Origin: Catenovulum agarivorans DS-2
Lineage (GTDB): Bacteria; Pseudomonadota; Gammaproteobacteria; Enterobacterales; Alteromonadaceae
Direction of reading: 5' to 3'
NCBI RefSeq assembly: GCF_000568405.1
Contig: NZ_ARZY01000018.1
Coordinates: 1-64,000, forward strand
DNA length: 64,000 nt
Position 1 is the stretch's first letter, and each line of letters opens with the position of its first letter. Positions 4,479 through 18,906 of this stretch are shown piece after piece. Position numbers and translations under genes: made by a program. The notes below the pieces were generated by a model that was given only the letters and a program-made list of their open reading frames with translations, did not search any database and had not been told where the DNA came from.

Positions 4479-6293
4479 CTAGTGGTCTCCAACTACTTTT
4501 AGTTGAGGTCGCGATAACGCGCCCGATTTAACATACTGTGCAATTTCGTTTAATTTCGATGGGTAAACCTCCTGGTCGTTAATCCACTCTGCCTCGGCAA
4601 CACTGAGTGGTCGGTCGATAATTTCGCTAATTTGCATACGAGCATCTAAAGCATCTAAGCGTTTTTCACCTTTTTCAGGTATAAACATTTCAGGTACATC
4701 AATTTCATGCCCCTTAGTTGCAAAAGCGGCTGTGTGCTGAATATCTTTTAAATGACTATGCGCATTTATCTCGCCGTTAAATGGTGTGTCATGTTTTTTG
4801 CGGGCTTTCTCTGCATCTTCTTGGCTCAAGCCAGCGTAAGCCAACGCATTGGCGGCTTTCTTATTGCCGTCAATTTGGTCATCTGCTAAAGCCGCGTAAC
4901 CCTCACCAATCACACTGCCAGCTAAACTAAAGCCAAACTCGTCTCGTTCGTCTACTTGCACCTGGTGCACAATCTCTTTGCCAGACAAAGGATCTTTAGT
5001 GAAAACTAAAATGTCGGTAGAGCCGTCCAAAATAATCGGCGCAACTCTGACCTTTTCACCAATTAACACCCCGAGCAAACCCTCCAACAAATAAGGTACG
5101 CTTGTGCCAATAGCCGGGTGAACAAAGGTGATCACATAATTGTTTTTAACCTTTCGCTCAACTGGTTCGTAGCTCAACATATAGCGGCAAATTTGCTCAG
5201 GTGGGCAAATACGCAAATGCTTGCTGTAAGCTGCAGTATGAATTGTGCGCCATACATCTAGGCGGCTTTTATTGGTTCTACTTAGTTTGGCGTCGTAGTT
5301 AGGAATAAGGTCTGCGTTGTAAGCGTTTTGCCAAGCAAATACAGCATCGTTCATTTCATCTACCGATTTAACTGGCTCTAGCAGCAAACGGCTCTCGAAG
5401 AGTTTTTCAACAATATTGTTGGCATTTTCAACCTGACCTTTTGCGCGTGAGTTACCAGTGTCATGCGTTCGCAGGTCAACATTCAGCGAATCACACAAAC
5501 GCTTAACTGGTTTAGCAATATTGGCCGTGCCTCGGTCTACATATAAAATGTACGGCAAACCATGTGCTTCACGTTCTTGCTGTTTAATCCAACACCATAG
5601 GATAAAGTCAGCAACAAGCTGCATACTTTCGCCCGCCGCGCTGTAATACTTAACCCATATATGCCCGCTGGTGTGGTCAGTACACACATAACGCCATACA
5701 CGTAATTTGGCTGTTTTACTAAATGAATCAGGCTTATTCTTATAAAAAGCAGATTCATCCGCCAAGTTTTGAAATACGTTTGAACCTTTCACCTTTTTGC
5801 TTTCAGGATCGTAGTAAATCACACAGAGCGAAGGGTCAATTTGATGCACATGATTTGGATGCAAACTGCGCAACTGGGTAGCAGCTGAATCGCGCTGCAT
5901 TGCCTTAGCATTCATATTACGTTCACGCAGCAGCCTATTCACAGTGCTTTTACTCATAAAGTTGTAACCGTTTTGGCTAAGAATAGAAATAGCATTAGGT
6001 ACTTCCATCATCTGTTTACCGTTGCTTCTACTGCCTGTATGCAAAGTCGCGGCAACCATTTCCAGTGCGGTTTCGTCTTGAGCCGTTTTGCCCTTGTCGC
6101 TTCTGGTTTTACGCTTGCTGTATTTCAGCCCATGTTTATCCATTTCTCGGTACAGCTTGTGGTGATTCGACCAGCCAAAATAAGCAAGCGCATCACTAAT
6201 GATGCTTTGTTTTGTGCCGTGGGCAGCTTTTTCTAACTTCAAAGCAAAGTTGCGTAAGGCATCAAAATATTCATGGTTTAAAGTGGCTGACAT
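4479..6293 (-). CDS. A: Mu-type DDE transposase
   Basis: 604 residues. Proposed catalytic triad: D153 (HVHQIDPS), D253 (YILYVDRGTA) and E289 (GQVENANN), with the usual Mu/retroviral-integrase spacing and the C-terminal beta-barrel Mu-C domain at about 385-450. The acidic C-terminal part would contact B. It cuts the phage ends and joins them to target DNA. The N-terminal helix-turn-helix is present but Mu's enhancer-binding domain is not obvious. It lies ten bases downstream of the coiled-coil protein gene. Confidence 0.95.
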   Translation of the reverse strand: MSATLNHEYFDALRNFALKLEKAAHGTKQSIISDALAYFGWSNHHKLYREMDKHGLKYSKRKTRSDKGKTAQDETALEMVAATLHTGSRSNGKQMMEVPNAISILSQNGYNFMSKSTVNRLLRERNMNAKAMQRDSAATQLRSLHPNHVHQIDPSLCVIYYDPESKKVKGSNVFQNLADESAFYKNKPDSFSKTAKLRVWRYVCTDHTSGHIWVKYYSAAGESMQLVADFILWCWIKQQEREAHGLPYILYVDRGTANIAKPVKRLCDSLNVDLRTHDTGNSRAKGQVENANNIVEKLFESRLLLEPVKSVDEMNDAVFAWQNAYNADLIPNYDAKLSRTNKSRLDVWRTIHTAAYSKHLRICPPEQICRYMLSYEPVERKVKNNYVITFVHPAIGTSVPYLLEGLLGVLIGEKVRVAPIILDGSTDILVFTKDPLSGKEIVHQVQVDERDEFGFSLAGSVIGEGYAALADDQIDGNKKAANALAYAGLSQEDAEKARKKHDTPFNGEINAHSHLKDIQHTAAFATKGHEIDVPEMFIPEKGEKRLDALDARMQISEIIDRPLSVAEAEWINDQEVYPSKLNEIAQYVKSGALSRPQLKVVGDH

Positions 6294-6302
6294 GGTGGCT
6301 CC

Positions 6303-7298
6303 TTACTCAGCATTTACAGGCGTAGCTAACTGTTTAATTAATTCCCAGTTTGCTTTCGGTTGGTTGGCAAAGTTACCCATGCTGTGATCAAACTCGTCAA
6401 ACAAGGCAGCAGCTCGTTGCAGAGCTTCAAAAAAAGCAGTGTGCGCTTGTGGTATGGCAATCTCTAACGCTCGTTCAAAAGCGGCCTCTTGTACTGGGTT
6501 ATTGCATTCCATCAGCTTGGTGTTTAGCTGTAGCGCTAAATCCGACATTTGCATACCAGCCTCAACCACTCTTAACGCAGCTTTTTTGGCTATTTCTTCA
6601 ATGTCTTTGGTCAACTGCGAATAGTCGTTAGGCTTGAGGCGCTTTTCTTCTAACTTAATTCTTAGTGCTTCAGATTCTTGCTGGGCCTTACTATACAAAT
6701 CGCGGTTGGCATTAAGGTTGGCTTTTAAACTGTCTATTTCTTTAGATTTATTCGCCAGTTCAGACTCTTTATCGTCTAACACCTTTTGGTGTTTTTCGTC
6801 CAAATCATTTATAAGCTGTTGGACGTCTTCTTTAGTCACTTCTGGTTTAGACGTATATTCAGCCACAATCGCTTGTTCGTCTTCTGGCAGTTTGCGAGCT
6901 AGGCGCAGAGTTTTGGTAGAAACTCCTATACGTTCGAACGTTTCCGCAGCTTCAATGCCAAACTGATTGGCGTTTTGTAGACGTTCATTTACTGTATTTT
7001 TGTGTGTGCCAATGAGTAAACAAAATTCATCAAAAGAACCGACCATCGGCCGTTTCTCGCCGTCAATGTCAACAATTCTTCCCTTTAAAGCCTTGTAAAG
7101 CTTATGTTCTTTGATGTATTGCAATTTTTGCAAAGAGACGACGTCGGTCATTTTTGAAAACGCCTCGGCCATTTGAATCTGGCCGATAAGCTGGTTTATT
7201 TCATCTCGGCCTTCACCATAACCATCGTTTAATTTTTGGTACAAAGCCGCTTCTTCGGCCGTGGTCATTTCCATTACATCTTTGTTATCTGTAGTCAT
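6303..7298 (-). CDS. Coiled-coil DNA-binding early protein
   Basis: 331 residues. Residues 1-160 are helical with a possible helix-turn-helix (FCLLIGTHKNTVNERLQNA), followed by a long coiled coil at about 165-225 (NDLDEKHQKVLDDKESEL and similar heptads) and a helical C-terminal domain. Similar proteins lie immediately upstream of the transposase in several Mu-like prophages; no function is established. The fold suggests a ParB-like or nucleoid-like DNA binder, which is an inference from composition only. Confidence 0.75.
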   Translation of the reverse strand: MTTDNKDVMEMTTAEEAALYQKLNDGYGEGRDEINQLIGQIQMAEAFSKMTDVVSLQKLQYIKEHKLYKALKGRIVDIDGEKRPMVGSFDEFCLLIGTHKNTVNERLQNANQFGIEAAETFERIGVSTKTLRLARKLPEDEQAIVAEYTSKPEVTKEDVQQLINDLDEKHQKVLDDKESELANKSKEIDSLKANLNANRDLYSKAQQESEALRIKLEEKRLKPNDYSQLTKDIEEIAKKAALRVVEAGMQMSDLALQLNTKLMECNNPVQEAAFERALEIAIPQAHTAFFEALQRAAALFDEFDHSMGNFANQPKANWELIKQLATPVNAE

Positions 7299-7307
7299 TA
7301 TTACCCC

Positions 7308-7601
7308 CTAAAAGCCAGCGTATGTAGACGCATCCTGGCGCAATTGCTCACGTGCAACACGCAGCGAATGTTCAACTTTATGTGAAAGACCACCCACTCT
7401 AGGGGTTAAACGATATAAACGATTATTGTGAGGGGTTTTCTCTGCCCACTCGGCTTGCATAAGGTTGGCAAGAATGCGGCCAGCCTCGGTGCTTTGTACG
7501 CCTAAAGCTCTGGCCAATTCAGCTTGGCTAATGCCGTGGCAAATATGCTCAGCTAAAAGTTCGATAGCAGATAAGGTTCTAATTATTTGATTGCTAGCCA
7601 T
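7308..7601 (-). CDS. IclR-type winged-helix regulator
   Basis: 97 residues. IRTLSAIELLAEH followed by ISQAELARALGVQSTEAGRI is the N-terminal winged helix of IclR-like regulators, without the ligand-binding domain of that family. It overlaps the upstream gene by eight bases. A small early DNA-binding protein; target unknown. Confidence 0.75.
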   Translation of the reverse strand: MASNQIIRTLSAIELLAEHICHGISQAELARALGVQSTEAGRILANLMQAEWAEKTPHNNRLYRLTPRVGGLSHKVEHSLRVAREQLRQDASTYAGF

Positions 7602-8073
7602 TGTGATCTCCTAACAAGCTAGGTTGCTTAAAATGTTCTAGTTCAGACTTGTGGTAAGCTAAATCTTGCAGCGCAGCCATAATCATGTTGGTTGTTTCGT
7701 CAACGCTGCATTCACCGTTGTAAAAGTTAATAATTTGGCTGCCTACTTGAGCCAGTGCGACTTGTAGCTCAGCCAGCTCTTTGGCTTCGGCTTTACGCCC
7801 TGTAGGGATTTTTACCAACATAAACCCCTGCGAAGCAGCGCTATACTTAGTAAACAAAGGAATGCCACAAGTTTGCTCAAACGCTATCAAACGGTTTACC
7901 GGTAATTTTGCATCCGCTAGGTAGCCATACATCTGCGACTTACTAGCCATTCCGAGCCTGTCCATAATGCGTTCTACGCTTAAATTGTGTTTCTCTTTGG
8001 CGTGCTGTAGGCATTTGTCTAATGCATCTACCGGGTCGTGGCCTGATACATACTTCCAATTGCGTCTAGGCAT
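7594..8073 (-). CDS. Phage early protein with helix-turn-helix
   Basis: 159 residues from the ATG at 8073, chosen because GGAGG lies six bases upstream and the longer frame overlaps the previous gene deeply. The segment LSVERIMDRLGMASKSQMYGYL looks like a helix-turn-helix that would recognise DNA; the remainder is helical with many Ala/Leu. Similar Mu-prophage proteins are annotated only as hypothetical or transcriptional regulator. Confidence 0.7.
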   Translation of the reverse strand: MPRRNWKYVSGHDPVDALDKCLQHAKEKHNLSVERIMDRLGMASKSQMYGYLADAKLPVNRLIAFEQTCGIPLFTKYSAASQGFMLVKIPTGRKAEAKELAELQVALAQVGSQIINFYNGECSVDETTNMIMAALQDLAYHKSELEHFKQPSLLGDHNG

Positions 8074-8488
8074 GTTTGCCTCCAGACATACTAATAACTG
8101 TTCGTCCGTTATCGTTGCGCTCACGCACAAAAACAAATTCGCAAATGTCCTGTTTCGATGTCACCAAACTGTTGCTTAAATTAGCTGCATACACATACAA
8201 CGAAAGAGCATCAAAATGGCTACCCGAATCGAAAAACCAACACAACTTCAACGTGAGCAAATTGGCTGGCCGAGTCAGCTTGGCTTTGTAAGGTTTACAC
8301 AAACTCGCAATGTGTTCATCAGTGGCAAGCAAATTAGCGAAGTTAGGTGTTTGCTCAATACTTTGCTGAGTTACGCGCCACAGCAACGTGTGCTCTGTGT
8401 TCAATTGGGTTTGAGCGCTAGGTGCAATGTAATGCTTGCGTTGCAAACTTTGGTTTGGCGTAAGTGGTGTACAAATAGCGCTAGCCAT
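8066..8488 (-). CDS. Hypothetical phage early protein
   Basis: 140 residues with no motif I recognise. It overlaps its neighbours by eight bases on both sides, the mark of a tightly packed phage operon, and its frame is open throughout. Composition is ordinary and no membrane segment stands out. Confidence 0.65.
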   Translation of the reverse strand: MASAICTPLTPNQSLQRKHYIAPSAQTQLNTEHTLLWRVTQQSIEQTPNFANLLATDEHIASLCKPYKAKLTRPANLLTLKLCWFFDSGSHFDALSLYVYAANLSNSLVTSKQDICEFVFVRERNDNGRTVISMSGGKHA

Positions 8489-8837
8489 ATTTCACCTCCG
8501 TGTTGGTGCAGCTACTTACTAGCGCCAATCGAACTGACGGAAAACACACAGCGGTTTTTTGTCGGCTCTCTAAGCAATGCGGAGGCGTAACCATGCCAAG
8601 TGATTCAAGCTTGCGTCGTAACTCGCGGCAGTACCTTTTGCTTACGCCAAGGGCGGCGGCCATGTCTTTAAACTTCATGTCGGTTTGGCAAAGTTTGGTT
8701 AAATTTCGCATTAAGCGGCGGTGCTCTGTGCTAATACGTTTTGCCAAAATTAGCGAGTGGCATGCTTGCAACTGTTGCCGTTGCTGGTTGCATAAATTAA
8801 TCAACTCAGCGTGGCTTAAATTATTTAAGTCGGTCAT
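8481..8837 (-). CDS. Phage early protein with helix-turn-helix
   Basis: 118 residues. The N-terminal helix (LSHAELINLCNQQRQQLQAC) is coiled-coil-like, and the middle DMAAALGVSKRYCRELRRKL is a convincing helix-turn-helix. It lies directly after the Ner-like gene. Likely an early regulator; target unknown. Confidence 0.65.
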   Translation of the reverse strand: MTDLNNLSHAELINLCNQQRQQLQACHSLILAKRISTEHRRLMRNLTKLCQTDMKFKDMAAALGVSKRYCRELRRKLESLGMVTPPHCLESRQKTAVCFPSVRLALVSSCTNTEVKYG

Positions 8838-8854
8838 TGGGGGCGTCCTTGTGG

Positions 8855-9124
8855 TTAGCTGGCTTGTGCGAATAATTCGCGCAATTCTGCAACTTTGGCT
8901 TTGCGGGCTTTGCCTACGCAGCGTTTTGAATTGGCAATGGCGGGAAATACTTCTTCCAGTGGCTTTTCAATTATTTTGCAAACGGCTTCTGCAATGGTGC
9001 GAGACTTGTTATGGCCACCAATTAAACCAGACACAGAGCCTAAGCTTACGTCTAACGCATCGGCGATCATGGACAAGGTGTAGCCTTTATCACTAATGGC
9101 TTGTTTGATTTCTTCGGAATTCAT
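8855..9124 (-). CDS. ner: Ner-like early regulator
   Basis: 89 residues, first gene of the early operon. The N-terminal half, IKQAISDKGYTLSMIADALDV then LIGGHNKSRTIAEAVCKIIEKP, follows the Ner/Nlp pattern of a lambda-repressor-like helix-turn-helix with the EEVFPAI closing motif. In Mu, Ner represses both the early and the repressor promoter to drive lytic growth. Position and divergent orientation to the repressor agree. Confidence 0.82.
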   Translation of the reverse strand: MNSEEIKQAISDKGYTLSMIADALDVSLGSVSGLIGGHNKSRTIAEAVCKIIEKPLEEVFPAIANSKRCVGKARKAKVAELRELFAQAS

Positions 9125-9202
9125 AGTAAATTACCTCTTTGGTTTACCCTGTTGCGTGGTTTTGGCGAACGGTTGCAGCAGGGTTTGATAAAGTTCGAGA
9201 TA

Positions 9203-9231
9203 AATATAGGGTGCATATTTGCACCTGTCAA
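9203..9231 (-). promoter_or_regulatory. Early promoter with operator in its spacer
   Basis: On the minus strand TTGACA (9231-9226) and TATATT (9208-9203) are separated by exactly 17 bp, a near-perfect sigma70 promoter reading into ner. The whole 17-bp spacer is the palindrome at 9210-9225 plus one base, so a protein bound there would block polymerase directly. Confidence 0.85.
9210..9225. promoter_or_regulatory. Operator O1
   Basis: Inverted repeat GGTGCA-TATT-TGCACC, perfect 6-bp arms. It fills the spacer of the early promoter. Its likely ligand is the repressor encoded next door. Confidence 0.8.
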
Positions 9232-9239
9232 TATAAAAA

Positions 9240-9255
9240 GGTGCAAATATGCAAT
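9240..9255. promoter_or_regulatory. Operator O2 overlapping the repressor start
   Basis: GGTGCA-AATA-TGCAAT, a second, weaker copy of O1 (right arm 4 of 6) starting 30 bp, three helical turns, from O1. It covers the Shine-Dalgarno (AAGG at 9238-9241) and the ATG at 9249 of the repressor gene, suggesting autorepression. Confidence 0.7.
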
Positions 9256-9647
9256 CTTTTTTGTTGTCTGAGAGAGAACGTCTCGGTTTAAAACAGAAAG
9301 ACGTTTTTGAATTTATAGGTGTAAATAAGGCGACTTATTACCGCTGGGAGTCTGGTAATCCAATTCCCTCAGACAAATTAAATGAATTGTCAAAGCTAGG
9401 CTTTGATGTGAATTACGTGGTAACAGGCCAGCGTGATTCGGTGGCTATAAACAAACAAAACTACGACAGAGCAATGCGTATAGTGATGTTGTACGTCATT
9501 AAATCAGGCCGAGAAGTGGCCGACCCAGACATGTTTGTGCAAGTGGTAAACGAGGTATATCAAGTTATTGAGTTTTGCGAACAAAATAACAAAGAAATTG
9601 ATCAAGTCGAAATTGGGGCAAAGGTAATAAATTTATTCGCAGCATAA
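9249..9647 (+). CDS. c: Phage repressor, Cro/CI helix-turn-helix
   Basis: 132 residues. The N-terminal Cro/CI domain is clear: LLSERERLGLKQKDVFEFIGV, then NKATYYRWESGNPIPS. The C-terminal half is helical and probably dimerises; there is no LexA-like Ser/Lys self-cleavage domain, so induction by RecA cleavage is not expected. It is divergent from ner with 124 bp between, containing both operators. It is taken as the lysogeny repressor by position. Confidence 0.88.
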   Translation: MQSFLLSERERLGLKQKDVFEFIGVNKATYYRWESGNPIPSDKLNELSKLGFDVNYVVTGQRDSVAINKQNYDRAMRIVMLYVIKSGREVADPDMFVQVVNEVYQVIEFCEQNNKEIDQVEIGAKVINLFAA

Positions 9648-9663
9648 CGGAAAAGGAGCAGTA

Positions 9664-10269
9664 ATGGACAACGATAATAAGATTGTTGAGGAGTTATTAA
9701 AAAACAACAACGTTCTATCGTTTGAAAAAATGTTGAAGCAAAAAAGGGCTAGCGGTGAGCGTTCGGGTACAACCATAGGCAACGGCAATATCATTGCCGG
9801 AGGTAGTATTTCCATTAACCAGCCGCCAGCTATTCAACAGATTATGGTAACGCCAGGCGAGCAACATATAACAGATGCTCAAGCGTATGAAATAAAAGAG
9901 TTGGTGCGTCAAATAGTTGTACTCGAAGCGCACGTAAAAGAAAAGCCCCGCGGCTATGCCGCTGTATGGGCTAGCTTTAAGCGCAAATTTAAATGCACTA
10001 AATACCAGCTATTAACGCAAGAGCAATTCGACCCTGCCATTAGTTATTTACGCCAAACAATTGGCCGTTTAAGTCGCTCTGTAAAAGCCAAGCAGTCGCC
10101 AGAATGGCGAAAGCGTAAGTATTCGTTTATTCATACCAATGTTAAAAAGTTAGGCATTGAGCAAGAACGAAAAGATTACATGGCCATTAACTTTGGAGCC
10201 GAGTCGATGAAAGAGCTGAGCGATAGAGAATTGGAACAGCTGTACAATTGGGTTGCTAAGTTGAAGTGA
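9664..10269 (+). CDS. ORF6C-like domain protein in the lysogeny region
   Basis: 201 residues. Residues 70-130 (ITDAQAYEIKELVRQIVVLE ... AAVWASFKRKFKCTKYQLL ... FDPAISYLRQ) follow the ORF6C domain found at the C-terminus of phage antirepressors; the C-terminal KELSDRELEQLYNWV resembles the last helix of GemA-type proteins. There is a Gly/Asn-rich segment (TTIGNGNIIAGGSISINQ). It follows the repressor by 16 bp with AAAGGAG upstream, so it is probably co-expressed in the lysogen. It may modulate repression or serve as a moron; this is inference. Confidence 0.7.
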   Translation: MDNDNKIVEELLKNNNVLSFEKMLKQKRASGERSGTTIGNGNIIAGGSISINQPPAIQQIMVTPGEQHITDAQAYEIKELVRQIVVLEAHVKEKPRGYAAVWASFKRKFKCTKYQLLTQEQFDPAISYLRQTIGRLSRSVKAKQSPEWRKRKYSFIHTNVKKLGIEQERKDYMAINFGAESMKELSDRELEQLYNWVAKLK

Positions 10270-10305
10270 ACTGAGTTTTACGTTTATAAATTACAAGGAT
10301 TAAAC

Positions 10306-10806
10306 ATGGCCGTTAAAGTAATAGAGTGCCCTGAATGTGGTAAAAAAAATGTCGCTAAGGCAGCAGAATGCATTAAATGCGGAACAGTATTAAATGAGAA
10401 TACGTATCAAAATAGGTTTAAACGCAACAAGCAAGGAAATGGAGTTTTTGCCAAATTGATACTTGGTGTTTGTGTACTTGCTGTAAGTGTTATGGCTGGG
10501 TTTATTTCAAATAAAATTTTCAGCTCTAATATATCGTTTTTCTCGGGTGAATATCAGCCGCTCGCTGAAATTGTGCAAATGTATTTGAAAGATCCTTCAA
10601 GTTACAAGCACTTGGAAACTCAAATTGTTGAATTAACGGAATATAAAATTTTAGTTACACTCACATACAGTGCCACTAATTCATTCGGTGCGCGGTTGAA
10701 AAGTTCTGCCAAGGCTACTTTTAACCTGAATGGAACGCTGATTGAATACCAAGAATCCCCGTTTTTTTGTAATTTGGATTTGTTGGATTGTCAGAATAAT
10801 TATTAA
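10306..10806 (+). CDS. Zinc-ribbon membrane protein
   Basis: 166 residues. An N-terminal zinc ribbon (CPECGKKNVAKAAECIKCG, residues 8-26) is followed by one membrane span at about 46-68 and an extra-cytoplasmic domain with LKDPSSYKHLE. The architecture, a cytoplasmic zinc finger tethered to a periplasmic domain, is frequent in phage and genomic-island cargo. Third gene after the repressor; function unknown. Confidence 0.7.
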   Translation: MAVKVIECPECGKKNVAKAAECIKCGTVLNENTYQNRFKRNKQGNGVFAKLILGVCVLAVSVMAGFISNKIFSSNISFFSGEYQPLAEIVQMYLKDPSSYKHLETQIVELTEYKILVTLTYSATNSFGARLKSSAKATFNLNGTLIEYQESPFFCNLDLLDCQNNY

Positions 10807-10917
10807 GGGGTATAAAGTAATTACATTTTCAATTAGCAGCATTGGAAAGTGCTGAGAGATTAAACGATAACTAACGGCTGTTTTATATGGTTTAACAATT
10901 GATATGAGGGTACGGTA

Positions 10918-11196
10918 GTGACTAATCTTTTGAAAAATCTTCTACCCCAACAGGGTGAAATTTTAACAATCAAGGAATTGCTAAAGCACTTCGAAGACAA
11001 CAATATTGTTGTATACAAGAAAAAAGGGCACGAAGTGGTTTTTGATGATTCATTTAGAAAGGATTTGGAAAGTTTATTGGAGAGCCAGTGCATCACGAAT
11101 TTACAAGGCCAAGCATCAATGCAGGAAATTGGTCTAAGAATTGGTGTCAAAGGGTCTTTAGTTATTGAGGATAATACACAGGTTCAAATTAATTAG
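10918..11196 (+). CDS. Hypothetical lysogeny-region protein
   Basis: 92 residues from a GTG start. A rightward frame in the cargo block between repressor and late genes; it contains no motif I know, begins with a helical segment (LLPQQGEILTIKELLKHFED) and is basic in the middle. The 110-bp gap upstream may hold its own promoter but none is obvious. A short GTG frame in AT-rich DNA, so it is less certain than its neighbours. Confidence 0.5.
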   Translation: MTNLLKNLLPQQGEILTIKELLKHFEDNNIVVYKKKGHEVVFDDSFRKDLESLLESQCITNLQGQASMQEIGLRIGVKGSLVIEDNTQVQIN

Positions 11197-11258
11197 GTTT
11201 AATTTAATCAGCTCAAAAGGGCAAGAGCCACGTGGTATAGGCAACGCAAAAGGTTTGT

Positions 11259-11909
11259 ATGAATAGTAAAGGGCTATTAATTTTTTTGGTTTCATCAGGA
11301 ATAGTGTACTTTCTTTTTGCAATTATGAAAATCTCGCAATGTGTATCGGTTGAATTAATGCAGTCGTTTGTCACTAGCTTGGCTGTTGGTATGCTTGCGT
11401 TGGGGGGGATTGTATATGCTCAATGGCAATTTAATATCCGCCAGGAGAAGCAGTTTGCAATGGACCACCAGCAAAAACTTGATGATGAGTTAAGGAGGCA
11501 TTTGTATACGCTGTATAAGGCTTTGGGTGAATTGGAAATTGTTATTTCTGACCAATGTGATATTGGTTTATCCAATCCAAACGTTACTGCTAAGGTTGCC
11601 AATAAAGTCGATGCTGCTAGGCGTGTACTGGAAACACAATTATTAGAATGCGAGAGTATAATAACAATTTTATGTTTTGATGAAAGGGCGCTCGGCTTAC
11701 ACAATTATATTGACGAACTTCGGACTATGGCCTCCTCTTATGTTAATTTATACGCAAGAAGCAGTAATAATAATTCGTTTTATGCTTTTGTTGGTAGCGC
11801 GTATACCACGATGCTATTTCGTTGGCAATCTACCTGCTACGCAACCTTAACAGACATAAGGCTAAGTATTGTGAGTACTGGGCGAAATATAAACGAATTT
11901 AAGCGCTGA
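11259..11909 (+). CDS. Two-span membrane protein in the lysogeny region
   Basis: 216 residues. Two N-terminal membrane helices (about 5-25 and 37-56) are followed by a long helical cytoplasmic domain. No family recognised. Inner-membrane proteins placed between a repressor and late genes are often superinfection-exclusion or anti-phage morons; here that is inference from position and topology. Base composition is more AT-rich than the neighbouring late genes. Confidence 0.65.
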   Translation: MNSKGLLIFLVSSGIVYFLFAIMKISQCVSVELMQSFVTSLAVGMLALGGIVYAQWQFNIRQEKQFAMDHQQKLDDELRRHLYTLYKALGELEIVISDQCDIGLSNPNVTAKVANKVDAARRVLETQLLECESIITILCFDERALGLHNYIDELRTMASSYVNLYARSSNNNSFYAFVGSAYTTMLFRWQSTCYATLTDIRLSIVSTGRNINEFKR

Positions 11910-11955
11910 TTTTTATTTTATAAACTCAGTCGGACATAAAAACACTGTTACATAG

Positions 11956-12013
11956 TAAAAACCTTTAACCCAAGTTACATGACCAAAATTAGCTAGCTAT
12001 TCCATTCTATAGC
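11956..12013 (+). promoter_or_regulatory. Mor-dependent promoter of the lysis and head genes
   Basis: ACCTTTAACCCAAGTTACAT then GACC (11961-11984) is repeated with few changes at 19811-19834. The core is an inverted repeat TAAC-N4-GTTA, the kind of dyad bound by Mor/C dimers, and is followed 20-25 bp later by a -10-like TCTAT (12007-12011). No -35 box is evident, as expected for an activator-dependent promoter. The upstream region 11910-11955 shows nothing else. Confidence 0.65.
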
Positions 12014-12041
12014 CACGTTTTTAAACAAACTCCGTGGCTAT
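12009..12041 (+). promoter_or_regulatory. Hairpin at the start of the endolysin gene
   Basis: A perfect 9-bp stem ATAGCCACG / CGTGGCTAT with a 15-base loop ends two bases before the ATG at 12043 and includes the alternative GTG at 12034. No Shine-Dalgarno is visible. If transcription starts near 12012, the hairpin is the very 5' end of the late transcript and could delay endolysin translation or stabilise the mRNA. Confidence 0.55.
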
Positions 12042-12042
12042 A

Positions 12043-12663
12043 ATGAATCCCCCAAAAAAACACCAAATTTTACAAGCTGAAAACCCAGGGTTTGATATTT
12101 CAAACTATCGGTTTTTAATGCAATACCCTAGTGCGTTTGTTGACGCAATACTCTTTGTATTGGTTGTTGAAGGCGCTTTAAAAAGTAATGGTGGCCAAAC
12201 CAACCAGCATAACGACAAAGGCGGTTTAACTCGCTTTGGCCTTAGCCAAAAATATAACCACGAAATTGACGTAACCAAGCTCACGTTAGAAAGCGCAGTG
12301 GCGCACTATCACAAAAAATATTACCTATACCCACGCATAAACCTACTACCTGTTTACCTGCAGCCGTCTGTATTTGGCGCATACGTTAATGCGGGTGTAG
12401 ATGAGTCGATTAAATTTTTGCAAATAAGCTGCGGTGCCGCGGCTGATGGTGTTATTGGCCCTCAAACCGTTAGCCATGCCAGCGGGCGAACGCCAAGCGC
12501 TTTACTGGCCGATTTTTTAAGCCGTCGGGGGGCGGATTATAGCCTGACTGCTGCGAGCGATTGCAGCCAGTCGGGCTATTTACGTGGTTGGTTACGCCGT
12601 ACCTATTTGCAGTTGCAATACTCCATTGCCATTAGCGAAGAACAGGAGGCCACCCATGGCTAA
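12043..12663 (+). CDS. Endolysin, GH108-type N-acetylmuramidase
   Basis: 206 residues from the ATG at 12043 (GTG at 12034 is an alternative). The pattern VVEGALKSNGG ... HNDKGGLTRFGLSQ, with the catalytic Glu in VVEG, and the C-terminal GVIGPQTV peptidoglycan-binding-like motif match phage lysozymes of the glycoside hydrolase 108 family, which cut the glycan backbone at the end of the lytic cycle. It is the first gene after the Mor-type promoter. It has no signal peptide, so it needs a holin. Confidence 0.85.
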   Translation: MNPPKKHQILQAENPGFDISNYRFLMQYPSAFVDAILFVLVVEGALKSNGGQTNQHNDKGGLTRFGLSQKYNHEIDVTKLTLESAVAHYHKKYYLYPRINLLPVYLQPSVFGAYVNAGVDESIKFLQISCGAAADGVIGPQTVSHASGRTPSALLADFLSRRGADYSLTAASDCSQSGYLRGWLRRTYLQLQYSIAISEEQEATHG

Positions 12664-12883
12664 AGTATTTCGCGCTGTACTTATTGCGGTATTAGAAAAA
12701 CTACTTATGGCCGCCATTACCGTTGATGTGTTGCTGCCATTGGCTATCAAGCTATTACGTAAAGCCGCAAAACTTTCTACCAACAAAGTGGATGACCAAT
12801 GGGTTGATGGCATTGAAAACAAGTTAATTGAAAACGGTGATTTACCACCCAAACCACACACCAAGGACACGCCAAATGGATAA
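12656..12883 (+). CDS. Small membrane protein, holin candidate
   Basis: 75 residues from the ATG at 12656, which is served by AGGAGG seven bases upstream; the frame is open upstream but overlaps the endolysin. A hydrophobic stretch (LIAVLEKLLMAAITVDVLLPLAI) can form one membrane helix, followed by a charged C-terminus. Position beside the endolysin makes a holin plausible, though the sequence does not belong to a holin family I know. Confidence 0.6.
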   Translation: MAKVFRAVLIAVLEKLLMAAITVDVLLPLAIKLLRKAAKLSTNKVDDQWVDGIENKLIENGDLPPKPHTKDTPNG

Positions 12884-13100
12884 CGCCGACAGAGCGCAAG
12901 ACTTAATAGAAATGCGTACAAACCATGCCTTGCAAGCCAATAAAGCTAAATTTAAAGGCGCGGATATAGACGAACCCTACTGCCTAGCGTGCGGCATTGA
13001 AATACCCCAAGCAAGACGCAAGGCCGTACATAACTGCGAATACTGCATTGACTGCCAGCAAGAACAAGAGCTGCGCCGTCGCCAGCAACTCGGGGGCTAA
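12876..13100 (+). CDS. TraR/DksA-like zinc-finger protein
   Basis: 74 residues from the ATG at 12876, which overlaps the previous stop. Cys-X2-Cys (CLAC) and CEYC-like pairs separated by 17 residues, with IPQARRKAV between, are the TraR/DksA zinc finger. Such proteins bind the secondary channel of RNA polymerase and mimic DksA/ppGpp. Common in the lysis region of Mu-like and P2-like phages. Confidence 0.85.
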   Translation: MDNADRAQDLIEMRTNHALQANKAKFKGADIDEPYCLACGIEIPQARRKAVHNCEYCIDCQQEQELRRRQQLGG

Positions 13101-13101
13101 C

Positions 13102-13413
13102 ATGGACTTTATTATGGAATGGTGGAAAGCCTTTATTGCCATAGCCTGCGCCATTGTTGGAGCAGGCGCACTGGCTTGGCTGCGTAGCACCTTTGTTAGC
13201 AAAAAAGAATTTGAGCAGCACAAGCAGCGTTTAACGGATATTGAAAAAACCATTGAAGACCTGCCCAGCTCAGAAGATTTACACGAACTGGACAAGCGCT
13301 TAATTGAAGTGGGCGGCAAAATAGACTCGCTCACCCCGCAATTAAACGACGTTAAAAAACTAACTGATTTACTAATGGAAAACGAATTAAGAGGTGCGCG
13401 CAATGGCGATTAA
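13102..13413 (+). CDS. DUF2730 protein (Mu gp25-like)
   Basis: 103 residues from the ATG at 13102. One N-terminal membrane span (WWKAFIAIACAIVGAGALAW) precedes a coiled coil (KKEFEQHKQRLTDIEKTIED). This is the layout of DUF2730, in the position of Mu gp25. Function unknown; a spanin-like or envelope role is possible. Confidence 0.8.
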   Translation: MDFIMEWWKAFIAIACAIVGAGALAWLRSTFVSKKEFEQHKQRLTDIEKTIEDLPSSEDLHELDKRLIEVGGKIDSLTPQLNDVKKLTDLLMENELRGARNGD

Positions 13414-13702
13414 CCAAATTAAGTCTGAGCATGTTCGGCTTAGCATTTTAATTGCATTAAGCGAAGACGCTGGCTATCAACTTAACAGCAGCATGATTGG
13501 CGACATACTCAAACACTATCACTTAAAAAGTAGTCGTGACGAAGTGCATACCGAGCTAGCTTGGTTAGAGCGCAATGGCTATGTAAAGCTTGAAAAACTC
13601 AGTGCCAACACATGGCTTGCAACTATTAGCCAGTCAGGTGTTGATGTGGTTGAAGGTTCAATTGTCGTGCCTGGTATAAAACGCCCAAGCCCGCGGAGCT
13701 AA
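13403..13702 (+). CDS. Mu gp26-like winged-helix protein
   Basis: 99 residues from the ATG at 13403, overlapping the previous gene by 11 bases. The sequence SEHVRLSILIALSEDAGYQL ... TELAWLERNGYVKLE is a winged helix-turn-helix. It matches the protein of Mu-like phages placed just before the small terminase gene (gp26 position). Confidence 0.8.
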   Translation: MAINQIKSEHVRLSILIALSEDAGYQLNSSMIGDILKHYHLKSSRDEVHTELAWLERNGYVKLEKLSANTWLATISQSGVDVVEGSIVVPGIKRPSPRS

Positions 13703-13704
13703 CC

Positions 13705-14301
13705 ATGACCGAATCAGTGCGCCGCGGTAAACCTAGCAAAGTAGATTTACTGCCAGAAGATATTAAAAAGCGGCTAGACGAAATGCTGCGCGACAAGCGT
13801 TTTAGCCAAAGCGAAATATTAGAAGAAGTAAACCAGTTAATTATTCAATCGGGCCTTGACGATGGCGCAACCATTAGCCGCAGCGGATTAAGCCGCCATG
13901 CGCAAAAAACCGAAGCCATAGGCCAAAAGCTGCGCGAACTGCGTGAGTCTACCAAAGCATTAACTGCAGAGCTGGGCGACAAACCCACAGGCGATACAAC
14001 AAAGCTGATCCTTGAAATGGGACGGTCTCAATTGTTTAAAGCCATGCAAAAGCAATTAATGAACCCAGATGATGACGATGATGTAGACATCGGCATGATT
14101 AAAGATGCCATGCTGGCTGCACAACGACTAGAAGCAACCGCAATGGCCGCGCATAAACGCCAGCAAGAAATTGAAAAAGCCTATGCCGAAAAACTAGCCC
14201 AAGAGCTAGATGAAAAAACCAGCAACGAGTTTGTGCCGCAGTCGCGTGAAGAAATGCTGGCGTTCTTTAAGCACGACATTTTGGGTTTAAAACATGACTG
14301 A
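13705..14301 (+). CDS. DUF3486 protein, likely small terminase subunit (Mu gp27-like)
   Basis: 198 residues. It opens with a basic helix-turn-helix (KVDLLPEDIKKRLDEML) with SGLSRHAQKTEAIGQKL, typical of DUF3486, and has long helices and an acidic run (DDDDDVD). By position it is the Mu gp27 equivalent, taken to be the DNA-recognition (small) terminase subunit. It overlaps the large terminase gene by eight bases. Confidence 0.85.
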   Translation: MTESVRRGKPSKVDLLPEDIKKRLDEMLRDKRFSQSEILEEVNQLIIQSGLDDGATISRSGLSRHAQKTEAIGQKLRELRESTKALTAELGDKPTGDTTKLILEMGRSQLFKAMQKQLMNPDDDDDVDIGMIKDAMLAAQRLEATAMAAHKRQQEIEKAYAEKLAQELDEKTSNEFVPQSREEMLAFFKHDILGLKHD

Positions 14302-15871
14302 GCAAGCCCCACTTTCTAAAATTGCGGGTTCGTTAGCAATTGCGCTGCAATCAGACATTTTATTTGGCTACCAAAAAGAGTGGATGCAAGACAAATCCGT
14401 TATCAAAATAGCGGATAAATCACGCCGAACAGGTTTAACCTTTGCTGAAGCTTGTGATGATGTAATGTGTGCATCGCAGCCGGTTAACGCGCAAAACACT
14501 TACTACCTTGGCTCAGATAAAGAAATGGCCAAAGAGTTTATCGATGCCTGTGCTTTTTGGGCGCGTAAACTCAATATGGTTATGACCGAAATTGAAGAAA
14601 GTATCTTTGAAGACGAAGATGAAGACGGCAATAAAAAAAGCATTAAGTCGTTTGAAATTAAGTTTCCACACACGGGTAAAAAAATACTCGCGCTAAGTTC
14701 AAACCCGCGCAACTTGCGTGGCCGCCAAGGCAATGTGGTTATTGACGAAGCGGCATTCCACGACAGATTAGACGAAGTATTAAAAGCCGCCATGGCTCTC
14801 ACTATGTGGGGCGGCAAGCTGCGTATTATCTCAACCCATAATGGCGTTGATAACCTGTTTAATACACTTATCACCCAAGCCCGTCGTGGCGAGAAAAACT
14901 ACTCGGTACACCATATACCCATTGATAAAGCCCTCAAACATGGGCTGTATAAGCGTATATGTTTAATTAGCGGTCAAGAATGGTCGCAGCAAAAAGAAGA
15001 TACCTGGCTAAAAGAGCAAGTTAACTTTTACCCAACCGAAGAAGCCGCCAACGAAGAGCTGTTTTGTGTACCCAGCCAAGGTGCAGGGCAGTATTTAAGC
15101 CGTAGAGTACGTGAGCGTGCATTATCCGAACATTGCAAAGTTGTGCGCTATACAGCACCACAAGACTTTGAAATATGGACAGAGGAGCAGCGCGTAATCG
15201 ATGTACAAAAATGGTGTGAAGAGCAGCTGCTACCATTGCTGGAAAAACTCAGCCCTGATTTAAGCCACGCATTTGGTGAAGACTTTGCGCGTAAAGGCGA
15301 TTTGTCTGTATTCAGTATTGGTGAGATTAAACAGGACACCAAGCTTGAAGTGCCCATTATGGTTGAACTGCGTAATGTAACTTACGACCAGCAGCGGCAA
15401 ATTATGTTTTACATAACCGAGCGTTTACCTCGTTTACGTGGTTTGGCTTTTGACGCCACAGGTAATGGCGGCTATTTAGCTGAAGCGGCCATGCTGAAAT
15501 ACGGTACAGAATTGGTTGATTGTGTTCACCTTTCGCAAAACTGGTACCGCGAATGGATGCCAAAAGTTAAAGACTACTTTGATATGAACAATATTGTTCT
15601 ACCCAAAGATCAGGATGTGTTAGACGACCTTGGCCAAATCAAACTTAAAAACGGTATAGCGCAAGTTGATAAGGGCAAAAACGAAGGTAGTGATGGCAAT
15701 AAGCGCCATGGCGATGCCGCGATATCTATAGCCATGTTAGTACGTGCCGCTGAAATGGACGGCAGTGCAATTGAATACACCAGTCTACCCGGCAAAGGCG
15801 GTTTGTACGGCCAAAATGATGACGATGATTTAGACGACCTACCAGCAACAGGCTCAGATGGCTGTTACTAA
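14294..15871 (+). CDS. Large terminase subunit (Mu gp28-like)
   Basis: 525 residues. A P-loop variant SRRTGLTFAEA, a Walker B NVVIDEAAFHD and a nuclease half with FDATGNGGYL and HGDAAIS are seen in gp28-type terminases, which cut and pump phage DNA into the prohead. The frame is intact. It precedes the portal gene by 17 bases. Confidence 0.92.
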   Translation: MTEQAPLSKIAGSLAIALQSDILFGYQKEWMQDKSVIKIADKSRRTGLTFAEACDDVMCASQPVNAQNTYYLGSDKEMAKEFIDACAFWARKLNMVMTEIEESIFEDEDEDGNKKSIKSFEIKFPHTGKKILALSSNPRNLRGRQGNVVIDEAAFHDRLDEVLKAAMALTMWGGKLRIISTHNGVDNLFNTLITQARRGEKNYSVHHIPIDKALKHGLYKRICLISGQEWSQQKEDTWLKEQVNFYPTEEAANEELFCVPSQGAGQYLSRRVRERALSEHCKVVRYTAPQDFEIWTEEQRVIDVQKWCEEQLLPLLEKLSPDLSHAFGEDFARKGDLSVFSIGEIKQDTKLEVPIMVELRNVTYDQQRQIMFYITERLPRLRGLAFDATGNGGYLAEAAMLKYGTELVDCVHLSQNWYREWMPKVKDYFDMNNIVLPKDQDVLDDLGQIKLKNGIAQVDKGKNEGSDGNKRHGDAAISIAMLVRAAEMDGSAIEYTSLPGKGGLYGQNDDDDLDDLPATGSDGCY

Positions 15872-15888
15872 AGCAACAGGAACCCACC

Positions 15889-17488
15889 ATGAAAACCAGC
15901 AAAATAGTAGATAAATGGGGCAACCCCATTAACCTTGAATTAGAAGAGGTTCAAACCGAATCTAGTGCCAAGCTCGCGCAATTACATAATCATTATGGCG
16001 ATCACCCAAGCGGCGGTTTAACCCCAGCTAAAGCTAACCCCAGCTAAAGCCGCCAGTATTTTACGCGAAGCCGAACGAGGCCAATTAATTGCTCAGTGTG
16101 AATTAGCCGAAGACATAGAAGAAAAAGACGCGCATGTACAATCAGAGCTAGGCAAACGCCGTTTAGCCATGCAGTCAGTGCCGTGGAATATAGTGCCGCC
16201 CCCTAATGCCAGCGCAGCAGAACAACGCGACGCACAAATGATAGAAGAACTCCTACGCAATGCCACCTGGTTAGACGAAGCCATATTTGATGCAGGCGAT
16301 GGCATTTTAAAAGGCTTTAGCAACCAAGAGCTGGTATGGGACTTTTACGACAACACCCATATTATTGAGGCGTGTGAATATCGCGACCCATCTTGGTTCC
16401 AGGTTAACCCAAATAACCGCAACGAGATAACTTTGCGCGACGGTTCGCATGAGGGTGAAGCCCTGCGGCCGTTCGGTTGGTTGGCACATCAACATAAATC
16501 AAAATCGGGTTACGTATCGCGGCATGGTTTAATTCGGGTGCTTGTGTGGCCATTCTTATTTAAAAATTATTCAGTGCGCGATTTAGCCGAGTTTTTAGAG
16601 ATTTATGGTTTACCGCTGCGCCTGGGTAAATACCCAGCAGGTGCCAGCGAAAAAGAAAAACTGACATTGCTGCGTGCAGTTATGAGCATAGGCCATAACG
16701 CAGGCGGTATTATACCCCAAGGCATGGCACTTGAATTTGAAAAAGCGGCAGACGGTGCAAGCGACCCTTTTATGGCTATGGTCAATTGGTGTGAAAAATC
16801 GCAGAGTAAAGCCATATTAGGCGGCACACTGACCAGCCAAGCTGACGGTAAAACCAGCACAAATGCGTTGGGTAATGTACACAACGAAGTGCGTACAGAA
16901 ATACGCGATGCCGATTTAAAACAACTGCAAAACACCTTAACACGCGATATTGTTTACCCGCTGTATGCACTGAATGGTAAGTCGTTTAACGGCCCAAGAC
17001 GCCACCCACGCTTTGAATTTGACACAACAGAGCCAGAAGAAATAGCGCAATTAGCTGAGCCACTGGCTAAGTTTGTTGAAATGGGCATGCGTATACCCAC
17101 CCAATGGTTACACGAAAAAACCAAAATACCAGAGGCAGGCAAAAACGAAGCCGTATTAAGTTTTAACAGCGGCTTTAACAATGCAAAGCCAGCAATAGAC
17201 CCTGCACAACTCAAAGGCTTTGCCGCTTTGCGCCGCGAAAGCATAGAGCCGTTTGCCGACCAATTGGCGATAGAGCAAGCGTTAGATAGTTTAAGCGCAG
17301 GCGAATTTGACCAGCAAATGCTGGGTATTTTAAAACCCTTATTTGATGCAGCAGAGCAAAACCCCGAAAGCTTAAAAGCGCAGTTAAGCCAGGTATGGCC
17401 AGCAATGGACGATGCCGAGTTTACCCAACGTTTAGCGCAAGTGTTATTTGTGGGCGAGCTGTGGGGGCAAATAAATGCCGACAGTTGA
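15889..17488 (+). pseudogene. Portal protein (Mu gp29-like, DUF935), frameshifted
   Basis: The gene starts at the ATG at 15889 with AGGAA upstream and reads MKTSKIVDKW onward to a premature TAA at 16045-16047. A perfect 16-bp tandem duplication at 16019-16050 causes this shift; removing one copy restores 527 residues in one frame (GGLTPAKAASILREAE across the joint), as in Mu gp29. Downstream the frame is intact to 17488, and translation could restart at the ATG at 16169 but would lack the first 88 residues. The portal forms the DNA-entry vertex and is essential, so this lesion should stop virion assembly unless the duplication is lost. Confidence 0.9.
16019..16050. repeat. Perfect 16-bp tandem duplication in the portal gene
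   Basis: TAACCCCAGCTAAAGC occurs twice in a row. Because 16 is not a multiple of three, it shifts the reading frame by one. Such duplications can revert by slippage or recombination. Confidence 0.98.
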
Positions 17489-18839
17489 TTTGCAAACAGC
17501 GTTTAAACAACCGCCAAAAGATGCGGTGGCTTATTTTCGCTCAAAAGGTTTTACCGTATCGGACAACTGGTGGGAAGTATGGCAAGGCGCACATGCTAAA
17601 GCTTTCACTGTGGCTAAAGCCATGCGAATGGATGTGCTAGAAGATATACGCAAAGGGTTAGATCAAGCACTCGCGCAAGGTAAAACCGCAAAACAGTTTA
17701 CTGATGAGCTTGCACCGCTTTTAAAAAACAAAGGTTGGTGGGGCAAACAAATATGGGCGGATAGCGAGGGCAATGCGCGTGAAGTGCAACTGGGCAGCTA
17801 CCACCGCTTACGCAATATTTACCGCATTAATTTACAAACTGCGTATATGTCAGGCCGTTATCGTCGCCAATTGGAAGGCGCTAAAACTCGCCCATACTGG
17901 ATGTATGTTGCCATATTAGACGGCCAAACCCGCCCAACGCACCGCACCCTAAACGGTAAAGTGTTTAGGTTTGATGACCCAATATGGCAAGTAATATACC
18001 CACCTAATGGCTGGGGCTGTCGTTGCCGCGTTCGTGCCTTAACCGAGGCGCAAGTTAAACGCATGGGCCTACAAGTTGAACAAGGCGAGCAATACATACA
18101 AGACATTCAAGCTGAAGCAGGCACAGACAAAACCACAGGCGAAGTGATAGAGGTTGACCACAAACAAATAAACTTACCCAACGGCAAAAGTATGCGCCCT
18201 GATGTGGGGTGGGCACATAACCCAGGAGAAGCCGCCTTTGGAACAGACATGGCCATAGCGCAAAAAATTGGCCGTGTGCAAGATATTGATTTACGTAGCC
18301 AAACCATACAGGCGTTAAATAATAGCCCTGAGCGCGAGGCAGTGTTTAGGCAATGGGTGTCACAAAAATTACAGAAAATAGAAAAGCATCAAGAGCTGCA
18401 AGCAGCCAGAGAGTTTGATCGTTTGCGTGAAATAGGCATGACACCAGAAGCCTCTGCAGTAGTGGGCTTTTTGCCCGATGATGTATTTAATTATTTAGCT
18501 GATAAAAAGGTAAATGCATCACGAGTTGTGATGATAAGTGAGCGACAATTAGCTCATGCAAATAGACCTAAGCACAAGCGTGATGATGTTGATGTGCCAT
18601 TGCATGAATACGAAAACCTTGTTGACTGGATAAACAACAGCAATGCACAAATTTTGTTTGAACCTGCAGGTAAAGCGTTAATTTATGTAATTGATAAGGG
18701 AGATGAGGCAATTAAAGTGGTTGTTAGTTTTAATGCAAAAAACAGCAAAGGTTTAGACATGTTTATTACAACGTATCGTACGCCAATGGATTCGGTAAAA
18801 AGTGACATATTAGGTGGAAAGCTTGAGGTTATACGGTAG
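17475..18839 (+). CDS. F: MuF head morphogenesis protein with nuclease-like C-terminal domain
   Basis: 454 residues. Residues 1-230 are the Phage_Mu_F domain (VAILDGQTRPTHRTLNGKVF and PPNGWGCRCRVRAL, the family signature) that joins the portal to the head. Residues 331-454 form a separate domain: ISERQLAHANRPKHKRD, ALIYVIDKG, IKVVVSFNAK and ITTYRTP resemble the phage BECR nuclease fold (PBECR families), which caps many MuF proteins as a polymorphic toxin. Conserved-looking H361, R364 and T/R in TTYRT are candidate active-site residues. The last 30 codons look unlike Mu. The stop codon overlaps the first tRNA-like gene on the opposite strand. The toxin activity is inference. Confidence 0.85.
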   Translation: MPTVDLQTAFKQPPKDAVAYFRSKGFTVSDNWWEVWQGAHAKAFTVAKAMRMDVLEDIRKGLDQALAQGKTAKQFTDELAPLLKNKGWWGKQIWADSEGNAREVQLGSYHRLRNIYRINLQTAYMSGRYRRQLEGAKTRPYWMYVAILDGQTRPTHRTLNGKVFRFDDPIWQVIYPPNGWGCRCRVRALTEAQVKRMGLQVEQGEQYIQDIQAEAGTDKTTGEVIEVDHKQINLPNGKSMRPDVGWAHNPGEAAFGTDMAIAQKIGRVQDIDLRSQTIQALNNSPEREAVFRQWVSQKLQKIEKHQELQAAREFDRLREIGMTPEASAVVGFLPDDVFNYLADKKVNASRVVMISERQLAHANRPKHKRDDVDVPLHEYENLVDWINNSNAQILFEPAGKALIYVIDKGDEAIKVVVSFNAKNSKGLDMFITTYRTPMDSVKSDILGGKLEVIR

Positions 18840-18906
18840 GGTGAGACTCGAACTCACATCACAGCGCCAAAGGCACTGCCCCTTTCCCATCGGGGAACAC
18901 TACCGC
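18833..18906 (-). ncRNA. tRNA-like RNA 1
   Basis: Read on the minus strand: acceptor stem CGGTAG / CTACCG, D-arm CCCC / GGGG with loop GATGGGAAA, T-arm GTGAG / CTCAC with loop TTCGAGT, and a central arm CAGTGCC-TTT-GGCGCTG. The length is 74 nt. The central hairpin is closed to a three-base loop, or a 7-base loop CCTTTGG with C instead of the invariant U33; the nominal anticodon is UUU. No CCA is encoded. Its 3' end overlaps the stop codon of the MuF gene. The pairing is seen; whether it is charged, processed or functional is not. Confidence 0.65.

Follow-up and report, generated by a model that had tools for sequence, protein, structure and literature searches.

A probable two-protein immunity repressor and a variable gene slot behind it in a Mu-type transposable prophage of Catenovulum agarivorans

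Introduction

In phage Mu, the c repressor gene is divergent from ner and the transposase gene. Here, we describe the lysogeny region of a Mu-type transposable prophage of Catenovulum agarivorans DS-2, carried on contig NZ_ARZY01000018.1 (assembly GCF_000568405.1). The analysis covered positions 1 to 64,000 of this contig (the window, meaning the whole 64,000-nucleotide stretch). Within it, four open reading frames (ORFs; genes 1–4) follow an XRE-type repressor gene in the same direction.

Among 50,697 phage records, gene 1 has a single relative at E ≤0.001, namely the CI-like repressor encoded by Pseudomonas phage Gregale, which is one 267-residue protein with a helix-turn-helix (HTH) domain in front. 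No description of a split transposable-phage repressor, or of an ORF6C half of one, was found in the literature searched (titles and abstract openings); such a description could still be in print. We consider it probable that the region comprises a lysogeny module with a two-protein c repressor, followed by a swappable slot that would carry conversion genes.

Results

Gene 1 as the likely second half of a repressor

A single PHROG profile, phrog_17822 (267 positions), spans both the repressor and gene 1. The DNA-binding half, encoded at 9249–9647 (+ strand), consists of an HTH (HTH_3, E 4e-7) and a tail of ~70 residues and matches profile positions 12–95 (E 2e-6). Gene 1 (9664–10269, + strand; 201 aa) begins 16 bp behind the repressor gene and matches positions 70–262 (E 5e-39), the C-terminal two thirds of the profile. 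Thus, unlike in the one-piece members of phrog_17822, the HTH resides on a separate polypeptide. Gene 1 also matches the Pfam family ORF6C (PF10552) over residues 66–130, at 27.8 bits against a gathering cut-off of 22.

When this family was sought in 369 genomes from the class and 394 from the order, two sets that share some members, the second half turned up in eight genomes, besides HTH-only matches. It is fused and full length in five (G922, G1111, G1096, G960 and G1028, two of which belong to one genus) and split in three. The four split pairs found are those of this prophage, C. sediminis, G594 and G878; the C. sediminis pair comes from a separate search in which two of 98 genomes matched, the prophage's own genome included. 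In IMG/VR, 12 loci were found: nine fused, with open frames and no stops, and three with the HTH only. The fused contigs number eight distinct ones (two are mutually identical), and one does not differ from Gregale within its match. Each of the four split pairs has its second half starting 10–22 bp behind the DNA-binding gene. Of the five fused genome loci, four have a Ner relative opposite the repressor; in G878 a short protein was judged Ner-like by eye, and no Ner ORF was picked in G594. A tree of split and fused forms needs one change, but its support is 65/87 and long branches meet in it, and it does not set the direction of that change.

The first gene of the G878 pair encodes the Mu-type DNA-binding domain PF02316 (HTH_Tnp_Mu_1, E 2e-18), so the same second half is combined there with an unrelated DNA-binding half. 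This domain is not among the matches of the window repressor at E up to 1, which are to HTH_3 and related XRE families instead. Sister prophages were drawn from 15 other transposase matches in 395 family genomes; 13 of them had a readable slot, and those of G140 and G337 were unreadable. In one sister, L026, an S24 peptidase domain (E 4e-22) occupies the equivalent position in the repressor. Because of the shared profile, the fused forms, the adjacency, the partner swap in G878 and the S24 domain in L026, gene 1 is most likely a regulatory subunit of the repressor rather than cargo.

Two side observations concern the ends of such repressors. Among the small repressors of the window (9249–9647) and the sisters, several end in FAA, LVA or VA, by eye; we take these endings to be reminiscent of ClpXP degrons. 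Directly behind the fused repressor of L098, an 82-residue ORF (oriented coordinates 6492–6740) gives a match below cut-off to part of an S24 peptidase domain (E 0.001); it may be what is left of a repressor C-terminus that was replaced.

Paired operator-like palindromes over the presumed divergent promoters

Two operator-like palindromes lie 30 bp apart around the start of the repressor gene. The first, GGTGCATATTTGCACC (9210–9225), overlaps the candidate early promoter, and the second, GGTGCAAATATGCAAT (9240–9255), overlaps the repressor start. Their pair score exceeds that of all 40 shuffles. The pattern alone, with ≤3 mismatches, is not rare in the 64 kb (two found, 1.5 expected), but the pair is. 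The candidate early promoter, TTGACA-17-TATATT (9203–9231, − strand), agrees with 11 of 12 consensus positions in a consensus scan and is the best among seven promoter-like sites, where 10.7 are expected by chance.

Pairs spaced 29–33 bp apart are found upstream of the repressor in 11 of 12 regions (the window and 11 sisters), L027 being the exception, and their score exceeds all 40 shuffles in nine regions. This search took an internal start as reference for L025, L031 and L036, and L026 and L035 fell outside the test. The paired layout is the same in the sisters but the half-sites differ, which fits a set of heteroimmune repressors that would each use two operators three helical turns apart. 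In fused-type phages, for which the comparison had no shuffle control, pairs look 18–19 bp apart; this spacing belongs to the best pair in L097, L101, L103 and L107 and to the second-best in L098, L004 and L099, and L094 and L095 differ.

Taken together, these features suggest a c repressor made as two proteins from neighbouring genes, an XRE DNA-binding subunit and gene 1. The XRE subunit probably binds the two palindromes over the divergent promoters. The position of gene 1 and its architecture make it most likely that it associates with the DNA-bound repressor or tunes it, either by providing cooperativity or by sensing an induction signal, in the place taken by the S24 peptidase domain in L026. 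The two subunits would associate physically and be produced together in the lysogen.

Several observations weigh against this arrangement. The ORF6C half is clear in only two of the 13 sisters (C. sediminis, L024, and L029), marginal in L025 (E 0.03) and absent behind the repressor in ten. Because small repressors that lack the second half exist, gene 1 more likely tunes repression than makes it. In addition, the tail of the window repressor is not recognized as the type seen next to a partner elsewhere (0.7 bits). In leave-one-out comparisons, tail type predicts a partner for L024, L025 and L093 (E 3e-4 to 1e-3 for 1000 sequences), does so weakly for L029 and L032 (0.15–0.16) and fails for the window itself; it was dropped as a predictor.

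Several anti-repressor families of PHROG also contain ORF6C-like stretches (E 4e-6 to 0.013), and gene 1 could accordingly oppose the repressor instead of helping it. A role as an induction switch or anti-repressor, with inactivation of the repressor, would moreover suit a half that is missing from most sister prophages. However, phage anti-repressors carry Bro-N, KilA-N or AntA as N-terminal domains, and Pfam matches up to E 1 included none of these for gene 1. Elsewhere, this half forms one polypeptide with the repressor, and gene 1 is placed for co-production with the repressor, an arrangement that would be strange for a constitutive antagonist. We therefore regard an antagonist as unlikely and retain gene 1 as a probable regulatory subunit.

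A structure model of gene 1

The fold of gene 1 was modelled from 10 sequences, with a mean pLDDT of 75 (mostly ~90 from residue 71 and <50 at residues 27–64). The model contains two bundles. The first, the ORF6C core (residues 69–139; 9868–10080, + strand), overlays the C-terminal domain of Sak80alpha (8qe9_1A, Z 9.3, rmsd 1.6 over 66 residues), and the second (residues 144–201; 10093–10266, + strand) overlays the C-terminal domain of lambda Red-beta (6m9k_F, Z 7.9, rmsd 1.7 over 54 residues). Chain 1A of 8qe9 was taken to be Sak, because the paper names chain 1B Sak80alpha and because of Sak's 207 residues. Unrelated helical proteins come close behind (Z 7.7 and below), and helical bundles reach such Z scores through their common arrangement. 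The second bundle also shows weak similarity to GemA (Pfam E 0.012, below cut-off; phrog_286 E 3e-5).

Foldseek gave no solved structure for gene 1 at E ≤0.001 (best 8qe9, E 0.75), the gene 1 sequence matched no solved structure at E up to 1, and its profile matched only two unrelated ones (E 0.22 and 1.7). In a sequence test against 37 other phage proteins, neither Red-beta nor Sak80alpha stood out; Sak80alpha had a domain E of 2.7, near the structural register, and Red-beta was outside the 12 best matches listed. In BFVD, the top fold match is to an ORF6C protein (E 8e-7); weak BFVD matches to RecT proteins of two phages (E 0.04 and 0.5) were not used. The low-confidence hinge carries a GNGN motif (residues 39–42; 9778–9789, + strand), which reads GNHN in the C. 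sediminis sister; a motif of this type in the gene behind the L032 repressor was not confirmed by pattern.

In the consulted parts of the respective papers, the lambda Red-beta C-terminal domain binds SSB (PMC8303780), and the Sak80alpha C-terminal domain acts in coordination with the SSB of its phage and is the part that Stl2, the SaPI2 repressor, grips (PMC11846896). On the strength of the model, one could imagine that gene 1 consists of two annealase-type C-terminal domains and serves a two-protein immunity repressor as its sensor subunit by binding the tail of SSB or a partner of SSB, but we consider this a long shot. If it were true, SSB-tail binding would couple derepression to exposed single-stranded DNA and permit induction without RecA-driven self-cleavage. 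The same gene 1 surface could then also let the repressor interfere with the recombinases of invading phages, as SaPI2 Stl2 does.

A variable slot between the lysogeny module and the endolysin

Genes 2–4 lie in a slot between the lysogeny module and the endolysin gene (GH108; 12034–12663, + strand), which forms its right border. The content of this slot is unlike that of the window in all 13 sisters. The closest sister, the C. sediminis prophage (G003), has a terminase 96% identical to that of the window, and blastn aligns its DNA with the window at 83.9% over 5217–8852 and at 84.6% over 11957–17164. The segment between these flanks (8853–11956) lacks continuous DNA identity and retains one 123-bp block at 75% and weaker pieces, e.g. 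9104–9251 at 68%. At the protein level, the repressor HTH is 60% and gene 1 55% identical between the two prophages. The C. sediminis slot holds five other genes and no counterpart of genes 2–4.

An earlier note on this DNA had described four same-direction ORFs behind the repressor as one cargo block, in the usual place for exclusion and anti-phage genes. Their coordinates (9664–11909) and strand were confirmed, and all four carry a coding signal, with z = 8.0, 4.5, 4.1 and 5.4 for genes 1, 2, 3 and 4, respectively (true-frame codon score against 500 base shuffles, gene 1 itself being in the training set). The labels given to the genes were likewise borne out, namely ORF6C for gene 1, a zinc-ribbon membrane protein for gene 2 and two spans for gene 4. 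As a block, the description stands for genes 2–4, which occupy the variable slot, and it does not for gene 1, which is homologous to the C-terminal half of fused repressors.

A single block of exclusion or defence genes that includes gene 1 would be in keeping with the shared direction of all four genes and the variability of the stretch, and repressors can double as antiviral proteins, e.g. SaPI2 Stl2 in the consulted part of its description (PMC11846896). Nevertheless, fused repressors contain a homologue of gene 1 as one of their halves, and in C. sediminis it stays with the repressor while genes 2–4 are replaced. Its base composition is also nearer to the rest of the phage: the GC content is 0.422 for gene 1, 0.355, 0.351 and 0.384 for genes 2, 3 and 4, and 0.42–0.47 in ten other phage genes measured, the exception being the repressor gene (0.386). 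We give a single four-gene block very little credence. The repressor gene is AT-rich too, and composition alone thus cannot divide module from cargo, which counts against our own division of the region.

Genes 2–4 as probable conversion genes

Gene 2 (10306–10806, + strand; 166 aa) encodes a zinc ribbon just under the Pfam cut-off (24.8 vs 25 bits), a single hydrophobic span (residues 44–73) and a C-terminal domain with KDPxS and NSFG motifs. Gene 3 (10918–11196, + strand; 92 aa) has a GTG start with GAGGG upstream, and its product is without a membrane span. Gene 4 (11259–11909, + strand; 216 aa) encodes a membrane protein with two hydrophobic spans (about residues 3–26 and 33–55) and a helical soluble part.

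Genes 2–4 are probably lysogenic-conversion genes (morons), comprising two membrane proteins and a small protein. They could be transcribed from the same promoter as the repressor, and hence in the lysogen. A consensus scan of the + strand from the repressor to 11909 gave no terminator-like sites, although such scans prove nothing. For phage Fc02, the consulted part of its description (PMC9936078) reports lysogen transcription of the accessory gene that follows the repressor. The membrane spans and the position fit a role at the envelope, the most plausible site of action, e.g. in superinfection exclusion. In the predicted topology, gene 2 would place its zinc ribbon on the inner side of the membrane and its KDPxS/NSFG domain outside, and the helical bundle of gene 4 would lie on the inner side.

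Relatives were found mainly for gene 2. In L031, from another Catenovulum genome, a protein that is 39% identical over most of its length is encoded directly before the endolysin. By BLAST, slot proteins of L032 and L037 share one part of gene 2; by eye, an L026 protein has a gene 2-like layout and an L030 protein a similar C-terminal motif. Aeromonas phage LPM4 encodes a 345-residue protein with the gene 2 C-terminal stretch (31% over 67 residues, E 2e-4) and with DUF4875 and zinc-ribbon matches below cut-off. The LPM4 gene order is regulator, two genes, gene 2-like gene and integrase, so the gene again lies behind a regulator. The stretch is also present in Erwinia phage EtG, in another setting. 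For gene 3, no relatives were found in phages or plasmids, and its own genome and C. sediminis gave one stray match (E 0.13). Gene 4 has no relatives in phages or plasmids and only its own record in IMG/VR, and 118 family genomes gave none that convinces (one match, E 0.006, with internal stops). No relative of either gene was found in the slots of the 13 sisters. Pfam matches of genes 3 and 4 were weak and meaningless (4HFCP_synth, E 0.06; AnfO, E 0.19), and a single-sequence model of gene 4 (mean pLDDT 65), which matches generic four-helix bundles, was not used.

The lack of convincing relatives of genes 3 and 4 in the collections searched, together with the small size of gene 3, could mean that genes 2–4 are passengers, neutral or in decay, that serve neither host nor phage. 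Set against this are three open frames with coding signal, a relative matching gene 2 along most of its length in the corresponding slot of a second Catenovulum prophage, and the multi-gene systems in the slots of some sisters; we find a passenger status rather improbable. Expression with the endolysin in lytic growth is similarly improbable. Two membrane proteins directly upstream of an endolysin gene, in the same direction, do suggest late or lysis-associated genes. However, genes 3 and 4 lack relatives in the sister slots even though eight sisters have an endolysin homologous to that of the window, and the conserved DNA starts again 77 bp ahead of the endolysin gene, at 11957, where it may hold a late control region. 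Conversion genes are thus the explanation we carry forward.

Defence-related content of the slot in sister prophages

The earlier note could name no defence family for the block, and our searches agree. PADLOC-DB 2.0.0 (ends 2023) gave no match for genes 1–4 at E up to 10, and NCBIfam gave none above a curated cut-off (e.g. Flk for gene 1, E 3e-4, 20 bits vs 353). The DS1_1 and DS1_2 models had no match among the window's genes, and the repressor itself gave only weak PADLOC matches to RmrA (E 0.008 and 0.011). That genes 2–4 fit no defence family in either collection counts against our reading of the slot, as does sister cargo that is not defence-like: L024 has a LAPAL family protein in its slot, and L027 (5320–8247) and L035 (5560–8265) have homologous proteins of 975 and 901 residues, with Reg_prop repeats in the one tested. 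In both sisters a small protein is encoded in front of the large one; the two small proteins are homologous and, judged by eye, have a signal-like start.

Other sister slots do contain candidates. In L032, a YejK-type protein matches DS1_1_antiphage (E 3e-26, 92 bits, cut-off 330) and its neighbour DS1_2_antiphage (E 4e-22, 79 bits, cut-off 315); a protein with an HSDR_N domain lies in the same slot. L029 has weaker matches to the DS-1 pair (E 3e-11 and 2e-7), below the curated cut-offs. For both DS1_1 candidates, YejK itself is the better match (E 8e-53 and 2e-48), though also below its cut-off, which argues against close kinship with DS-1; the assignment of the two pairs was made because of the DS1_2-like neighbour. 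By these matches, the slots of two of the 13 sisters hold diverged relatives of the DS-1 pair. In the consulted part of a paper on DS systems, the YejK nucleoid-associated domain is newly validated in defence (PMC13092281); from the NCBIfam names, we infer that this YejK system is DS-1.

In one of the 13 sisters, L033, a RelA/SpoT protein matches PDC-S33, a candidate defence family (E 7e-13). It adjoins a 359-residue protein without PADLOC or NCBIfam match (oriented 8067–10108), and the two are possibly a toxin-antitoxin or defence pair. L026 shows weak SLATT and 2TM-effector matches (E 5e-4 and 4e-3). Matches to CARF_TM for an L032 protein (E 0.003) and to PDC-M09A for the L025 partner (E 0.008) were too weak and were not used. 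Of the 88 listed ORFs in sister slots, a number that includes repressors, endolysins and doubtful ORFs, PADLOC covered 20, and the defence share is accordingly a lower bound.

The note's view of the region as a usual place for exclusion and anti-phage genes therefore fits the slot, with its DS-1-like and RelA/SpoT proteins in sisters, and is probably wrong for gene 1. The comparison across sister prophages that it proposed revealed variability, and the constant block that it had named as a refutation did not occur.

An opposite-strand cassette of a small protein and a membrane protein was also observed behind the repressor in L028, L030, L033, L036 and L037. The membrane protein, whose spans were assigned by eye, is homologous across the five sisters, weakly for L028, and a small Gly/Asn-rich peptide is added in L028, L030 and L033. 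The L028 membrane protein, the only one tested, has no Pfam or PADLOC match.

Setting of the locus

Opposite the repressor, a Ner-like regulator gene (8855–9124, − strand; phrog_769 transcriptional repressor, E 2e-10) is the first gene of the divergent early (transposition) operon. Leftward neighbours, by profile matches, are transposase, AAA ATPase, HU, DUF3164 and GemA genes, and the endolysin and large terminase genes lie to the right. In the structural-gene region, ARAGORN predicts a tRNA-Lys (TTT) gene at 18832–18906 (− strand), which overlaps the end of an ORF (17475–18839) by a few bases.

Discussion

If the two-gene repressor is real, the role of the ORF6C half in immunity and induction becomes directly testable through one small gene. 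That half also occurs fused, and paired with an unrelated DNA-binding domain. The slot behind it is a compact target for the search for anti-phage genes of transposable prophages, since relatives of an anti-phage pair are present in the slots of some sisters and no function is assigned to many of the genes found there.

Among known systems, Burkholderia phage KS10, compared by description only, has two hypothetical genes between its repressor and lysis genes, one of them without significant match in the consulted part of the report (PMC2628397). The DS-1 pair (NCBIfam NF053868 and NF053869) has its diverged relatives in the sister slots mentioned and none in the window. Although the two gene 1 model bundles overlay the C-terminal domains of Sak80alpha and lambda Red-beta, gene 1 has no annealing domain. 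With the ORF6C (PF10552) proteins among phage anti-repressors it shares a match above the gathering cut-off, but it has a hinge and a second helical bundle and lacks their N-terminal domain. The likeness to the Mu c repressor lies in an immunity repressor divergent from ner and transposase; the DNA-binding domain is of the XRE type here and of the Mu type there, and a Mu-type domain with an ORF6C partner occurs in G878. In Gregale (OR683403, Casadabanvirus) and phrog_17822, the HTH, hinge and ORF6C-like part follow one another in the same order and in the same place opposite Ner and transposase. The Gregale repressor is the end gene of its record, with no cargo behind it, and is a single 267-residue protein where this prophage has two proteins.

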